NCBI GenBank assembly: GCA_017527065.1
Contig: JAFXQO010000068.1
Location: forward strand, 1 to 58,097
DNA length: 58,097 bases
Direction of reading: 5' to 3'
Source: Clostridia bacterium
GTDB taxonomy: Bacteria; Bacillota; Clostridia; Christensenellales; Aristaeellaceae
The translations under genes were made by a program, and so were the position numbers. Shown in pieces: positions 4,708 to 58,097 of this stretch. The notes under the pieces were generated by a model, which did no database searches, had not been told where the DNA came from, and was given only the letters and a program-made list of their open reading frames with translations. How positions within the stretch are numbered: the stretch's first letter is position 1; each line of letters opens with the position of its first letter.

Positions 4708-6585
4708 ATGGAAGAGTTCTCATATGACCGGCCTGAAGCCGATGTCGCTGTGGCCCTGGATCATGCGTCGACACGGGTCATCTCTCCGCTCCTGTTCGGC
4801 GACAACCTCGAACATACCCGCGCCTGCGTCAACGGCGGTTTGTCCGCCGAGGTCCTGAAAAACAGGAAATTTGTCGGGCACACCAGCCGGTACGGCTGCG
4901 CGAACGGATGGTATCCCATCGGAGAGAAAGCATTCTTCTCATTCGGGACTGATGACGGCGGGCTCACCGGCAGCCGGGTCTATACCCGTCACGGCGAAGG
5001 ATACCGGATGCGCCGCCGCCTGGAACGGAACGCGCAGTTCATTACCAATTACGCGGCGGGGAGAAGCGGAATCGGCCAGGAAGATCTGTATGTCAGGGGC
5101 GGGATTCCTTACGAGTGCTCCTTGGCTGTGAAGGCGCTGGCTGAAACGAAGGTCGCCGTCTCCCTGCTCGCGGGCGACGGGACGATTCACGACAGCGGGA
5201 CAATGACGGCGCGCGCCGGAGACTACAAAGAAATCGCGCTTCTTTTGACGCCCGCGCGGGAAGACCCGGAGGCGCGGCTGGAGATCACCTTCGACACGGA
5301 AGGAACCCTGATGATCGGCGCGGCTTCCCTCATGCCGTCGGATCACTTTCACGGAATGCGCCGGGATGTGATCGAAAAAATGAAGGAAATCGGGATCCGG
5401 CTGCTGCGCTGGCCGGGCGGCAATTTCTCCGGAGAATACCACTGGAAAGACGGCCTTCTCCCCCGCAACATACGCGCGCCGCTGGAGTCTTATCTGGGGC
5501 TCGAGACGCAGCCCCACACGCTTGGGTATGACTTTCATGAAATCAACACCGACGACTTTGTTGCGCTTTGCCGGGAAATCGGCGCGGAACCGTTTATCAC
5601 CATCAATCCCGCGTGGAACACGCCCGAGGAAAGCGCGCAGTGGGTTGAATACTGCAACGGCGACAGCGCGACGCCTTACGGAAAAATACGCGCCGATCGC
5701 GGATATCCCAAACCTTATGGCGTAAAGCTCTGGTCTCTGGGGAATGAAGCGGGCTATGGGCATATGGAAGGCGCGAATACCCCGGAGGGCTACGCGAAAA
5801 ACGCGCGTGCGCATGCGGAAAAGATGCTCGCCGCTTCTCCCGGAATCACGCTTTGCTCCTCCGGTCCCTATCCCAATCAGGACTGGGTGGAAAACTGCGC
5901 AAAGAAGCTCACTGACGTCTCAGGCGTCGTTTCACTGCACCACTATACCACGTTCCCCGCTTATATCGACCCGGCCGAGCGCGAACACGAGTATAACGCC
6001 TTCATCAGGGAAGCGGATACCGGGAATCTTACCTGCATGCAGGAGCTCTCGGCGCAGCTCAAAGGGACGGATATCAAAATCTCTTACGATGAATGGAACG
6101 CCTGGCACGCGTGGTACAGGATCGGGAGCGTCAGCGAAGGCATTTTTGCCGCGGCTTTTCAGAACATGCTTTTCCGCAACGCGGACAAATACGGGGTGAC
6201 AATGGCCTGCCATTTCGAGTCGGTCAATGAAGGCGCGATCATGGTTCATCCAGATCGGGCTGAGCTGGCCCCCGCGGGCGTCGCGTTCTCGCTCATGAAA
6301 GAGCACGCCGGCGGAACTGTCCGCGCGCTCGAGCAGGATGTTACGGCGACCCATAAAGATTCCGTCATCACCTGCACGCTGCTGAACCGCGCCTATGCGA
6401 AAGAAAAGCGGTTTACGCTGCGCGGCTGCGGCGAGATCCTCTCGGCGGTTCTGTATCGTTCGGAGGACGTCGTGCCTACATCTGTCTTTGAGAAGGCGGC
6501 CTTGCCCGTGACGGTTGTCGACGGCACGGCTGAAATCGTCCTGCCGCCGCACAGCATCGCCCAGATCAGGATGGCGTATATTTGA
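4708..6585 (+). CDS. Alpha-L-arabinofuranosidase, GH51
   Basis: Predicted to release terminal alpha-L-arabinofuranose from arabinan, arabinoxylan or their oligosaccharides. The GH51 barrel is marked by RWPGGNFSGEYHWKDG (about residue 235), the acid/base glutamate in LWSLGNEAG (E347) and the nucleophile in SYDEWNAWH (E462). An additional beta-rich region at about residues 110-220 resembles a carbohydrate-binding module inserted before the catalytic core, which explains the length of 625 residues against about 500 for many GH51 enzymes. The C-terminal 110 residues form the usual beta-sandwich. There is no signal peptide, so it works on imported oligosaccharides. GAGGAAG precedes the ATG. Confidence 0.92.
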   Translation: MEEFSYDRPEADVAVALDHASTRVISPLLFGDNLEHTRACVNGGLSAEVLKNRKFVGHTSRYGCANGWYPIGEKAFFSFGTDDGGLTGSRVYTRHGEGYRMRRRLERNAQFITNYAAGRSGIGQEDLYVRGGIPYECSLAVKALAETKVAVSLLAGDGTIHDSGTMTARAGDYKEIALLLTPAREDPEARLEITFDTEGTLMIGAASLMPSDHFHGMRRDVIEKMKEIGIRLLRWPGGNFSGEYHWKDGLLPRNIRAPLESYLGLETQPHTLGYDFHEINTDDFVALCREIGAEPFITINPAWNTPEESAQWVEYCNGDSATPYGKIRADRGYPKPYGVKLWSLGNEAGYGHMEGANTPEGYAKNARAHAEKMLAASPGITLCSSGPYPNQDWVENCAKKLTDVSGVVSLHHYTTFPAYIDPAEREHEYNAFIREADTGNLTCMQELSAQLKGTDIKISYDEWNAWHAWYRIGSVSEGIFAAAFQNMLFRNADKYGVTMACHFESVNEGAIMVHPDRAELAPAGVAFSLMKEHAGGTVRALEQDVTATHKDSVITCTLLNRAYAKEKRFTLRGCGEILSAVLYRSEDVVPTSVFEKAALPVTVVDGTAEIVLPPHSIAQIRMAYI

Positions 6586-54309: not shown

Positions 54310-54600
54310 CAACAGCATAGTGAAATGCGATGAAGGCATTAAGTCCCGCGCGGCGTCTCACAGAGAGCCGGTGTCTGGTGTAAACCGGCGGCAAGGCGCG
54401 AAGGCTGTCTGCTGCCCGAGCAGAATCCTGAACACTTCCCCGTCGGGAAGGTCAGTAGGGATCTCCGGCGGAGCTCCGTCACCAGGGCTCAGGGTTTGTT
54501 TGAACCTTACAAAGCGGCCGTGCGCGAGCGCGGCAATCCGGGTGGTACCGCGATTGAAGAATCGTCCCAGAAGCGAACGCTTCCGGGGCGTTTTTATTGA
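54310..54600 (+). promoter_or_regulatory. T-box riboswitch leader
   Basis: A tRNA-sensing leader that controls the downstream operon by antitermination. Stem I features are the GATGAAGG...AAGT segment (54329-54343), the distal AGAGAGCCGGTG and loop ending AAACCGG (54363-54388). The invariant T-box GGTGGTACCGCG is at 54541-54552. The terminator stem is 54563-54590, followed by five T residues, and a further hairpin (54435-54449) lies between. The specifier codon lies in AGAATCCTGAACACT (54422-54436) but cannot be fixed by eye: CUG (Leu) and AUC (Ile) are both possible. Confidence 0.93.
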
Positions 54601-54639: not shown

Positions 54640-56046
54640 ATGAAGACGATACGCATTTATGACGCGACGATGCGTCAGATGGCATCCGCGCAGAACAGCG
54701 CGCTGACCTTCCGGGAAAAGCTGGAGATCGTGCGCGCGCTGGACAAGCTGAAGATCGACACCATCGAGCTGCCCCGCATCGAGGACGCCAAGGCGGACAG
54801 CCTCCTGAACCGCACCGTGGCCTCGATGATCGCCACGGAGATTTCCGCCACGGTGGGCCTCGACGCCGGTTCCGTGAAGGAAGCCTGGGAGAGCATCCGC
54901 GCGGCAAAAAAGCCCGTGCTTCACGTGATGCTGCCGGTGTCCACCGTGCAGATGGAATATATCTGCCGCAAGAAGGCCCCGGCCATGCTGAAGCTGATCG
55001 AGGAACTGGTTTCGGCCTGCCGGTTCTATTGCGAGACGGTCGAGTTTTCCGCCCAGGATGCCACGCGCGCCGAGCCCGCCTTCCTGGCGCAGGCGGTTCA
55101 GGCGGCGATCGGGGCGGGCGCGAGCCGCGTCACCCTGTGCGACACGGCGGGCCTCATGACCCCGGTCGAATTCGGCGAATTCCTCAGAGGCGTTCAGGCC
55201 GCCGCGCCGGCGCTCAACGGCGTTCAGCTGAACGTGGAGTTCTCCAACGCCCTCAGCATGGCCTCGGCCTGCGCGGCGCAGGCGGCGGCGTGCGGCGCGG
55301 CGGGCGTCAAGACCACCGTGAGCCGGATGGACATCACCCCGCTGGAGGACTTCGCACAGTTCCTGAAAGCCCGCGGCGCCGACCTTGGCCTGGAGGCGGG
55401 CACGCGCTTCACCGAACTCACCCGCACCGTGCGCCAGCTGGAGTGGATGCTCAGCCCGAAGAAAGAAAACGCCGTCATCCAGACCGCGGACGCGGGCGCC
55501 ATGGCCAACATCTGCCTTGACGTCAACGACTCCATCGGCGAGGTCGTTAAAGTCGTGAACCAGCTGGGCTACGACCTTTCCGAGGAAGACAACGCGCGCG
55601 TTTATGAAGCGTTCAGGCGTGTGGCGGAGAAGAAGAACTTCGTCGGCACAAAGGAGCTGGAGGCCATCGTCGCCAGCAGCGCGCTGCAGGTGCCCTCCAC
55701 CTACCACCTGGACAGCTACGTCATCAACAGCGGCAACATCATCACCGCCACGGCCAACATATCCCTCGAAAAGGACGGCAAAAAGATGCGCGGCATGAGC
55801 GTCGGCGACGGCCCCATCGACGCCGCGTTCCTGGCCATCGAGCAGATCATCGGCCATCATTACGAGCTGGACGATTTCCAGATTCAGTCCATCACAGAGG
55901 GCCGCGAGGCCATGGGCAGCGCGCTGGTCAAGCTGCGCGCCGGCGGCCGCCTGTATTCCGGCAACGGCATTTCCACCGACATCATCGGCGCATCCATCCG
56001 CGCCTACATCAACGCTTTGAACAAGATCGTGTACGAGGAGGGCTGA
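54640..56046 (+). CDS. 2-isopropylmalate-synthase-like protein lacking metal ligands (LeuA allosteric domain retained)
   Basis: A 468-residue member of the LeuA/citramalate/homocitrate synthase family. The barrel (about 1-290) aligns through ELPRI, VEFSAQDATRAEP and CDTAGLMTPVEFGEFL, and the C-terminal LeuA regulatory dimer domain (about 345-468) is well kept. The active site is not: family TLRDGEQ is TMRQMAS here (metal-ligand Asp is Q13), and the HxH metal motif is V199 and F201 within LNVEFSNALSMA; the later NGxGERxGN loop is also lost. Canonical acetyl-CoA condensation is therefore unlikely. It is T-box controlled and followed by a TIM-barrel/acyl-CoA ligase gene. AAAGGAG precedes the ATG. 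Confidence 0.85.
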   Translation: MKTIRIYDATMRQMASAQNSALTFREKLEIVRALDKLKIDTIELPRIEDAKADSLLNRTVASMIATEISATVGLDAGSVKEAWESIRAAKKPVLHVMLPVSTVQMEYICRKKAPAMLKLIEELVSACRFYCETVEFSAQDATRAEPAFLAQAVQAAIGAGASRVTLCDTAGLMTPVEFGEFLRGVQAAAPALNGVQLNVEFSNALSMASACAAQAAACGAAGVKTTVSRMDITPLEDFAQFLKARGADLGLEAGTRFTELTRTVRQLEWMLSPKKENAVIQTADAGAMANICLDVNDSIGEVVKVVNQLGYDLSEEDNARVYEAFRRVAEKKNFVGTKELEAIVASSALQVPSTYHLDSYVINSGNIITATANISLEKDGKKMRGMSVGDGPIDAAFLAIEQIIGHHYELDDFQIQSITEGREAMGSALVKLRAGGRLYSGNGISTDIIGASIRAYINALNKIVYEEG

Positions 56047-56048
56047 CG

Positions 56049-58097
56049 GTGAAGCTGTCGTATTCCACTCTGAATTGGACGGACAGGACATGGCAGGCCC
56101 ACTGCGCCGCCGCCGCGGCCTGCGGCATGCAGGGCGTCGAGCTGGCAGGCGTCGGCGGGGCGGCGTTCCAGGGCAAGGACAGCCCGCTCAATCCCGAACT
56201 GTCCCTCGTCACCCGCCGCGGCCTCATCCGCCAGAACCTCTCGATCCCCTGCGTGGACACGGTGAGCGACTTCATGAGCGGCGACGCTTACGTGGAGCTG
56301 CGCCAGGCCATCGAGGCCGCGCAGAACCTGGGCGCGCCTTACGTGGGCCTGCACACGAGCTGCGCCGACGCGGACGCCGTGGCGGAGGCGCTCTCCGCCG
56401 TGCTCGACGCCCTGGAGGCGGACGGCTCCCTCGTACTGCTTCTTGAAACCCGCGGCGCGCTGGCCGATTCCGGCAAACTGCGCGACATCCTCAACTGCTT
56501 CGCGGACGACCGCCTGGCCGCGCTCTGGAACATGCACGAGACGTTCCAGGCGGCGGGCGAAGACCCGGAGACCACCATCACCAACCTGGGCGCTTATGTG
56601 AAGCACGTCCACCTCTCCGACTCCGTGAAGGAAAACGGCGGGCTGCGCCGCGAGCTGGTCGGCGAAGGCGAACTGCCCATCCACGAGCTGATGAACGCGC
56701 TGCGCTCGGTCAACTACGACGGCTTCGTGTCGCTGGAGTGGAATCCCGCCTGGATCGAGGACCTCGACGACATGGAGACCATTCTCACGCACTTTACAAG
56801 CGTCATGAGCGGCTATGAGACGCGCCGCAGCCGCCGGCGTTCCAGCCATCTCTACTCCAACAAGGCCGGAACAGGCAAATACGTGTGGAAGCAGAACGAG
56901 CTGATCACCAAGACCTTCTCCGAGGTGCTGGACACCATGGTGGAGGAATTCCCCGACCAACTGGCCATCCGCTGCACCACGCTGGATTACACTCGCACCT
57001 ACGCCCAGTTCCGCGACGACGTGGATGAATTCGCCCGGGCACTGATCGCGCTGGGCGTGCGCGCCGGCAGCAAGGTAACCATCTGGGCCACCAACGTGCC
57101 CCAGTGGTTCTTGACCTTCTGGGCCGCCACGAAGATCGGCGCGGTGCTCGTCACCATGAACACCGCCTATAAAATCCACGAGGCGGAATACCTGCTGCGC
57201 CAGTCCGACACGCACACGCTTGTCATGATCGAAGGCTATCGCGATTCCAACTACCGCCAGATCATCACGGAGCTCTGCCCCGAGTTGAAGGACAACCGGC
57301 CGGGACAGCCGCTGCACGCCCGCCGCCTGCCCTTCCTGCGCAACGTCATTTCCGTGGGCTTCCGCATGCCCGGCGCGCTGACCTGGGAGGAATCCCTCGA
57401 ATACGCCCAGAAGACGCCGCGGGAGGAGCTGAGCCGCATGGCGGCCGCCGTGGACGTAAACGACGTTTGCAACATGCAGTACACCTCCGGCACCACCGGC
57501 TTCCCGAAGGGCGTCATGCTGACCCACTACAACATCGTCAACGACGGCAAGTGCATCGGCGACGGCATGGACCTCTCCACCGCCGACCGCATGATGATCC
57601 AGGTGCCCATGTTCCATTGCTTCGGCATGGTGCTGGCCATGACCGCCACCATGACCCACGGCGGCACCATCCTGCCCCTGCCCTACTTCTCGCCCAAGTC
57701 CTCCCTGGCCTGCATCAACAACGAGCACATCACCGCCTTCCACGGCGTGCCCACCATGTTCATCGCCATGCTGTCCCACGAGGACTTCCCCAAGACCGAC
57801 TTCAGCCACATGCGCACCGGCATCATGGCCGGCAGCCCCTGCCCCATCGCCGTGATGCGCGACGTGGTCGAAAAGATGCACATGCCAGAGATCGTGATCG
57901 TGTACGGACAGACGGAGGCCTCGCCCGGCTGCACCATGAGCCGCACCACCGACCCGCTGGAGGTGCGCGTGACCACCGTGGGCAGCGCTTTCCCGGAGGT
58001 GGAGTGCAAGATCGTGGACCCGGAGACCTGGGAGGACCTGCCGGACAACGTGGACGGCGAGTTCGTGGCCCGGGGCTACAACGTGATGAAGGGCTAC
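56049..58097 (+). CDS. Fusion of a sugar-isomerase-like TIM barrel with an AMP-forming acyl-CoA synthetase (3' end outside window)
   Basis: An uninterrupted frame of 683 codons that runs off the right edge. Residues 1 to about 275 form a xylose-isomerase/AP-endonuclease-2-like TIM barrel with candidate metal ligands in LLLETRG, ALWNMHE, KHVHLSDS and SLEWNP. An Arg-rich linker (about 275-295) leads to an AMP-binding acyl-CoA synthetase from about 300, with the ATP-binding TSGTTGFPKG (from residue 479) and VYGQTEASPG (A5-type motif). It starts with GTG at 56049, 7 nt after GAGGAGG and 2 nt after the upstream stop, so the two genes are coupled. Substrates are unknown. Confidence 0.88.
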   Translation, partial: MKLSYSTLNWTDRTWQAHCAAAAACGMQGVELAGVGGAAFQGKDSPLNPELSLVTRRGLIRQNLSIPCVDTVSDFMSGDAYVELRQAIEAAQNLGAPYVGLHTSCADADAVAEALSAVLDALEADGSLVLLLETRGALADSGKLRDILNCFADDRLAALWNMHETFQAAGEDPETTITNLGAYVKHVHLSDSVKENGGLRRELVGEGELPIHELMNALRSVNYDGFVSLEWNPAWIEDLDDMETILTHFTSVMSGYETRRSRRRSSHLYSNKAGTGKYVWKQNELITKTFSEVLDTMVEEFPDQLAIRCTTLDYTRTYAQFRDDVDEFARALIALGVRAGSKVTIWATNVPQWFLTFWAATKIGAVLVTMNTAYKIHEAEYLLRQSDTHTLVMIEGYRDSNYRQIITELCPELKDNRPGQPLHARRLPFLRNVISVGFRMPGALTWEESLEYAQKTPREELSRMAAAVDVNDVCNMQYTSGTTGFPKGVMLTHYNIVNDGKCIGDGMDLSTADRMMIQVPMFHCFGMVLAMTATMTHGGTILPLPYFSPKSSLACINNEHITAFHGVPTMFIAMLSHEDFPKTDFSHMRTGIMAGSPCPIAVMRDVVEKMHMPEIVIVYGQTEASPGCTMSRTTDPLEVRVTTVGSAFPEVECKIVDPETWEDLPDNVDGEFVARGYNVMKGY

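Follow-up and report, generated by a model that had tools for sequence, protein, structure and literature searches.

A leucine T-box operon of Clostridia with a degenerate LeuA relative as candidate leucine sensor for a putative isovalerate ligase

The DNA analysed here is a contig of 58,097 nucleotides from a Clostridia bacterium of the Aristaeellaceae (hereafter the window). Close to its end lies a gene for a relative of 2-isopropylmalate synthase (IPMS, LeuA) which, judging from its sequence, is almost certainly dead as an IPMS and is termed pseudo-LeuA below. It stands behind a leucine T-box and directly ahead of a gene for an acyl-CoA ligase fusion. We consider it probable that these genes form an isovalerate-to-leucine operon, isovalerate being the predicted substrate of the ligase. 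As a whole, we moderately favour a model in which the operon forms the leucine arm of a route from branched-chain volatile fatty acids to amino acids, with the dead LeuA as leucine sensor gating the ligase. Chemistry of such a pathway is known; what would be new is that a T-box operon for the described pathway includes a pseudoenzyme as sensor.

Pseudo-LeuA is encoded by an open reading frame at 54640..56046 on the forward strand (468 amino acids, start codon ATG) and was identified from the reading frame, Pfam matches and alignments. Its top NCBIfam match is LeuA (NF002086, TIGR00973), with 286.7 bits, under the cut-off of 532. The N-terminal part, at 54649..55425 (+), is a degenerate catalytic TIM barrel (HMGL-like, 118 bits on residues 4-262). 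When aligned with the solved IPMS chains 6e1j, 3rmj, 3ewb and 3eeg, Q13 takes the place of the metal aspartate of TLRD, just as the initial annotation had proposed. The same annotation had both histidines of the HxH motif replaced by V199 and F201; the loss is real, and the residues aligned to the two histidines of HCHND are E200 and S202, one position further on. It was also correct in describing the NGxGERxGN loop as lost, four residues of which are gone, and understated the extent, as a second catalytic segment, bearing IHQHG, is deleted as well. The regulatory domain had been described as intact, and this is what we find: LeuA_dimer (PF08502) matches residues 338-463 (55651..56028, +) with 109.1 bits against a cut-off of 24.9 and spans profile positions 5-130 of 131, and this is the best-conserved portion of the protein across the family. 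An AlphaFold2 model displays a barrel and a distinct C-terminal alpha/beta domain (mean pLDDT 84.6, pTM 0.59).

Loss of the active site is a property of the whole family. An alignment was constructed from 122 unique family sequences, the window's own included and three fragments excluded, together with 11 catalytic LeuA as comparison set. The full metal-ligand set (Asp and HxH) is retained by none of the 122, compared with 11/11 catalytic LeuA; the check on orthologues that the initial annotation had proposed thus argues against decay of a single copy. At the position of the metal aspartate, E (40 sequences), Q (25), K (18) and R (10) are found along with 14 other residues, among these D once (L064). 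The first histidine position holds Q in 57 sequences, E in 31, S in 12 and others in the rest, never H; the second holds S in 90 and others in the rest, with H once (L051). Both the ER of GERxGN and IHQHG are missing from all 122 sequences. Chance loss of the active site was considered and rejected, since identical losses run throughout the 122 unique sequences.

Conservation along the protein is inverted. Mean pairwise identity among the 122 sequences is 0.683 in the regulatory domain (residues 346-466) and 0.418 in the barrel, whereas the 11 catalytic LeuA show 0.403 and 0.590, respectively, a contrast whose size is approximate, given that the LeuA sequences are few and differ in their diversity from the family. 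Selection that acts on the sensor half and no longer on the catalytic half would be expected to produce such inversion. Five barrel residues (E106, K112, D140, R143 and D168) are nevertheless invariant in all 122 sequences.

The family was detected in 13 genomes among those of 40 relatives. A search of 348 genomes of the phylum at E 1e-90 gave, beyond the window's genome, one family-level score (G379, 627 bits); the other 19 matches listed, at 310-344 bits, fall where catalytic LeuA score in this analysis. Seven proteins with intermediate scores of 281-353 bits (L144-L150) were considered as a sister clade and rejected, as they are ordinary LeuA with the ligand set in the alignment. Five of these seven adjoin a second synthase-like gene.

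The gene downstream of pseudo-LeuA (56049..58097, +) encodes a fusion of a TIM barrel of the sugar-isomerase type with an AMP-forming acyl-CoA ligase, and is cut by the contig end at 58097. Pfam places an AP_endonuc_2 barrel at 56106..56747 (+; residues 20-233, 68.2 bits) and an AMP-binding domain (PF00501) at 56937..58097 (+; residues 297-683, 293.1 bits) with the motif YTSGTTGFPKG at residue 478, in agreement with the CoA ligase fusion already noted. The C-terminal domain of the ligase, which is present in the relative L160, lies past the contig end in the window.

Conservation of this neighbourhood was followed in a scan that returned at least 573 stretches encoding some relative, catalytic LeuA included; the best 80 of these are referred to as named loci. 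The barrel part lies downstream in 79/80 and the ligase part in 76/80 of these best 80 loci of at least 573, and those lacking either part (L069, L040, L074, L075) have at most 870 bases of downstream DNA. The suggestion that pseudo-LeuA always adjoins a TIM-barrel/ligase gene is thereby borne out wherever DNA suffices. Where a fusion frame was found (75 named loci, out of the best 80 of at least 573), it exceeds 780 amino acids as one frame in 64; ten of the 11 shorter frames are cut by contig ends, and that of L048 is not. At five of the best 80 loci our script returned no fusion frame, L079 among them despite enough DNA. Identity to the window across the named loci (best 80 of at least 573) is highest in the ligase, at 68-91%, and lowest in the fused barrel, at 33-54%. 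We take H163, E230 and E133 to be the metal ligands of an isomerase-type barrel. In the 75 fusions aligned from the best 80 of at least 573 loci, these putative positions are kept in 30/75, 40/75 and 61/75 cases, respectively; by these residues and their poor conservation in the window's family, the fused barrel looks degenerate too. Two dead barrels side by side, one in pseudo-LeuA and one in the fusion, may form a control unit.

Could pseudo-LeuA serve the ligase as structural partner or stabiliser and do nothing else, with leucine binding lost and control left to the T-box alone? Such a role would suit a protein that adjoins the barrel-ligase fusion at all named loci with enough DNA (best 80 of at least 573), all the more as the fused barrel itself seems degenerate. 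We nevertheless regard it as unlikely, for the regulatory domain is the best conserved part of the protein (0.683, as above), and it is difficult to see why this should be so unless the domain has a ligand or an allosteric role.

The initial annotation had alternatively offered a metal-free enzyme acting on a CoA ester. In this reading, pseudo-LeuA would convert isovaleryl-CoA or a similar CoA ester by a new chemistry and would be feedback-inhibited by leucine; the invariant residues of the barrel, and the fact that the barrel has been kept and not deleted, speak in its favour. We find the proposal unsupported and judge it rather improbable, because the ligand positions drift freely and are fixed on no new residue, and because two catalytic segments are deleted. 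Moreover, the barrel is less conserved than that of catalytic LeuA, and the pathway proposed here leaves no step for such an enzyme.

Feedback control of the ligase is the reading to which the conserved leucine-type domain, the constant ligase neighbour and the ruined active site lead us. We therefore lean, if only slightly, towards pseudo-LeuA conferring leucine-sensing control on the ligase; that leucine is bound and that the ligase is affected are both inferred. The amino-acid-binding regulator suggested initially fits the same observations as well as the leucine T-box, and the binding itself retains the status of a prediction.

T-box regulation, also assumed in the initial annotation, is supported by a leader RNA (Rfam RF00230) that extends from stem I to antiterminator at 54321..54572 (+). 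The match is full-length (model 1-219 of 219) with 84.4 bits and E 5.4e-19; as this lies under the gathering score of 93, an Rfam scan of the whole window at gathering score is empty. The Rfam alignment sets CUGC at the specifier positions, with the specifier codon CUG (leucine) at 54409..54411 (+); after the specifier comes UGCC, which pairs with GGCA at 54335-54338. The T-box/antiterminator sequence GGGTGGTACCGCG, recognised from sequence and Rfam alignment, is located at 54540..54552 (+). Because a T-box permits transcription under shortage of its cognate amino acid, this operon should supply leucine.

Leaders of this kind accompany most relatives. In 15 relatives tested with Rfam, a T-box was detected at E <1e-3 in 13, nine of which exceed 93 bits, and none was found in L014 and L112. 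Where 400 or more upstream bases are present (77 named loci, from the best 80 of at least 573), a T-box motif was found within 450 bases upstream in 63, and by eye also in L096; in the remaining 13 it was not found directly upstream. The specifier could be parsed in 93/127 family loci: CTC in 77, CTG in 14 and two misparses (L055, L088), so that leucine accounts for 91/93 as parsed; a simpler specifier script reads CTC and CTG, respectively, at the two misparsed loci. No specifier was obtained at the other 34/127 loci, some of which have no upstream DNA or no T-box, and T-boxes of L009, L011, L012 and L115 were missed by the specifier script and found by Rfam. An AAC specifier at L102 was rejected, as it arose from a non-leader match, and the true leader was located by Rfam. 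A catalytic LeuA gene with a leucine (CTC) T-box (L148) was left out of the 93 parsed family leaders. As such a gene carries the same specifier, the leucine codon could be inherited from a LeuA operon.

Neighbouring genes were surveyed at the 56 loci whose downstream sequence reaches 3.6 kb or more, and subunits of VOR-type 2-oxoacid:ferredoxin oxidoreductase were sought within 10 kb. VOR subunit genes occur at 17/56 loci (9 downstream, 5 upstream on the same strand, 3 on the other strand), and a PFOR-type enzyme is encoded downstream at 22/56. At 17/56 loci both VOR and linked PFOR are absent; the only clearly cultured carrier, Bittarella massiliensis GD6 (L088), belongs here, and its genome lacks LeuB over cut-off. 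Contiguous arrangements include pseudo-LeuA, fusion, branched-chain aminotransferase (BCAT), ATPase, VorB, VorA and VorC at L162, and VorB, VorA, VorC, BCAT, pseudo-LeuA and fusion at L164. At L160, whose genome encodes a pseudo-LeuA of 62% identity, PFOR and BCAT follow further on along the same strand with other genes intervening. Sampled genes were assigned by family models: BCAT by NF009897 (504.9 bits, cut-off 307), VorB by NF005507 (549, cut-off 399) and PFOR by TIGR02176 (1729.5, cut-off 911); VorA and VorC are named by homology and position, the samples being under the curated cut-offs of related models. The window's own genome carries VOR and BCAT genes on contigs other than that of the pseudo-LeuA operon.

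The PFOR of the operon is a paralogue distinct from the stand-alone PFOR, and it occurs in the operons of L160, L161, L052 and others, VOR being found at other loci. Seventeen operon PFORs share 67-84% identity with the L052 operon copy, while stand-alone PFORs of three genomes (G019, G012, G000) share 54-56% with it and a PFOR on the other strand near L044 shares 53%. At L103, a leucine T-box (CTC) near 5551 precedes ATPase, VorB, VorA, VorC, BCAT, pseudo-LeuA and fusion; this T-box is absent from the Rfam list at gathering score. An Amidohydro_2 protein is encoded downstream on the same strand at 19/50 loci with at least 8.5 kb of downstream DNA (e.g. L058:13914-14711).

VOR modules also contain two kinds of a different ligase protein, about 760 amino acids long, in which a helix-turn-helix-like start and a cupin are combined with an AMP-forming ligase (the Pfam cut-offs are exceeded for AMP-binding and Cupin_2 and not reached for the helix-turn-helix models). 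The set comprises 35 copies, some partial or duplicated, of which 23 have a parsed T-box, and the two kinds were sorted by protein similarity alone. Kind one has an AUC (isoleucine) specifier in 14/14 parsed leaders, and kind two a valine specifier in 9/9 (GUA in 7, GUC in 2). The window's genome possesses leucine, isoleucine and valine T-boxes, each ahead of its own ligase of this paralogous group. Its isoleucine-type protein (L172, contig C11) has an AUC leader of 90.0 bits and its valine-type protein (L166/L173, contig C38) a GUC leader of 83.8 bits, against the Rfam gathering score of 93; on C38, VorB, VorA and VorC follow. The ligases on C38 and C11 are likely to represent valine and isoleucine arms. 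The three T-boxes match isovalerate, 2-methylbutyrate and isobutyrate as precursors, and nothing else supports the pathway reading as strongly as this agreement. A further T-box of the same genome (L175, contig C85, 3141-3390 on the reverse strand, 112.6 bits) has the specifier UAC (tyrosine) and precedes an AMP-ligase gene and an indolepyruvate-oxidoreductase-like alpha gene, both named from their sequences. This locus could be an aromatic-acid arm leading to tyrosine.

The same enzymes might be put to other uses. VOR and BCAT can in principle work in both directions, so the operon could degrade leucine; alternatively, the ligase could make branched acyl-CoA primers for membrane lipids, as the available text on Staphylococcus aureus MbcS describes for branched acids routed to lipids (PMC10026030). 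Both uses appear distinctly improbable to us. A leucine T-box switches the operon on at leucine shortage, opposite to what breakdown would need, the ligase consumes ATP, and linkage with VOR/PFOR and BCAT together with isoleucine and valine T-boxes on paralogues indicates amino-acid supply. Finally, a decaying LeuA gene, which the missing active-site residues might bring to mind, is hardly credible given that the losses are common to 122 unique sequences with a strongly conserved regulatory domain.

In a class sample of 291 genomes (35 carriers of pseudo-LeuA, 256 non-carriers), LeuB scores over cut-off in 5/35 carriers and 163/256 non-carriers (Fisher p 2.4e-8), and avoidance of LeuB holds within taxonomic families (Mantel-Haenszel p 1.2e-6). 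The corresponding numbers among relatives are 0/13 and 11/27, and LeuB occurs in 2/10 further carrier genomes. One divergent genus accounts for 3/5 LeuB-positive carriers of the class. Three loci of a divergent genus with a pseudo-LeuA operon (L141-L143; G078, G247, G183) were also inspected, and LeuB is over cut-off by E-value in 2/3 of these genomes. No LeuB over cut-off was found in the window's own genome, which is 89% complete. Since most carriers lack LeuB, the old leucine route is not one that pseudo-LeuA could serve. IlvC is over cut-off in 2/13 carriers and 9/27 non-carriers among relatives, and G001, of the same genus as the window, has neither the pseudo-LeuA family nor LeuB; absence of LeuB may thus in part be a consequence of a wider loss of branched-chain synthesis.

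The isovalerate-to-leucine model would operate as follows. Uncharged leucyl-tRNA would cause the T-box to permit transcription of the operon, and the ligase would convert isovalerate to isovaleryl-CoA. Reductive carboxylation to 2-oxoisocaproate would be performed by the VOR-type or the dedicated PFOR-type 2-oxoacid:ferredoxin oxidoreductase, either of which could be driven toward carboxylation by reduced ferredoxin, and BCAT would yield leucine. Leucine bound to the regulatory domain of pseudo-LeuA would then slow or stop the ligase through the dead barrel, so that the first step of the replacement route would now be controlled by a feedback sensor taken over from LeuABCD, the route that was lost.

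In its most inclusive form our proposal becomes tentative. LeuABCD may have been dropped and a catalysis-free LeuA kept as feedback subunit of an isovalerate ligase; this would be one T-box-controlled arm among those that make leucine, isoleucine, valine and perhaps tyrosine from waste acids, the others sensing via ligase-fused cupin (and helix-turn-helix-like) domains. The interpretation given in the initial annotation is thus partly supported; identification of the pathway was absent from it and is added here.

Candidate genes can now be named for the isovalerate-to-leucine route, which makes the route testable, and an RNA code, the T-box specifier, assigns each ligase to its amino acid. Pseudo-LeuA is clearly a candidate case of an enzyme that became a sensor, serving the route by which its original pathway was replaced. 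The proposal also bears on the need of gut and rumen bacteria for branched acids and on genome-based scoring of auxotrophy.

In the open-access literature we found no paper that names genes of the pathway, T-boxes on such genes or a catalytically dead LeuA. The pathway itself is old: in the portion of PMC7356843 available to us, isovalerate, 2-methylbutyrate and isobutyrate are given as rumen precursors of leucine, isoleucine and valine, and carboxylation of isovalerate to leucine in rumen bacteria is attributed to Allison and co-workers, since the 1960s. According to the available text of a 2020 proteome study, formation of branched-chain amino acids from branched short acids is unproven and theoretically possible via the ferredoxin oxidoreductase EC 1.2.7.7 (PMC7709123).

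Compared with known systems, pseudo-LeuA resembles LeuA (NF002086, TIGR00973) in its collinear barrel, subdomain II and LeuA_dimer domain, and differs in lacking the metal-ligand set, GERxGN and the IHQHG segment, as well as in scoring well below the family cut-off. The rumen isovalerate carboxylation pathway shares with our model the predicted activation, reductive carboxylation and amination; the papers searched, in their available parts, contain no gene set for it, whereas our proposal assigns to it a leucine T-box operon that includes a partner derived from LeuA. The characterised branched-acid synthetase MbcS (methylbutyryl-CoA synthetase) of S. aureus is likewise an ATP-dependent synthetase of branched short acids, a likeness drawn by description and not by sequence; as far as its available text goes, MbcS serves lipids and is poor with isovalerate. 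Typical T-box leaders precede leuA in two Proteobacteria, according to the accessible part of PMC2494555, whereas the gene under control here is a non-catalytic LeuA relative.
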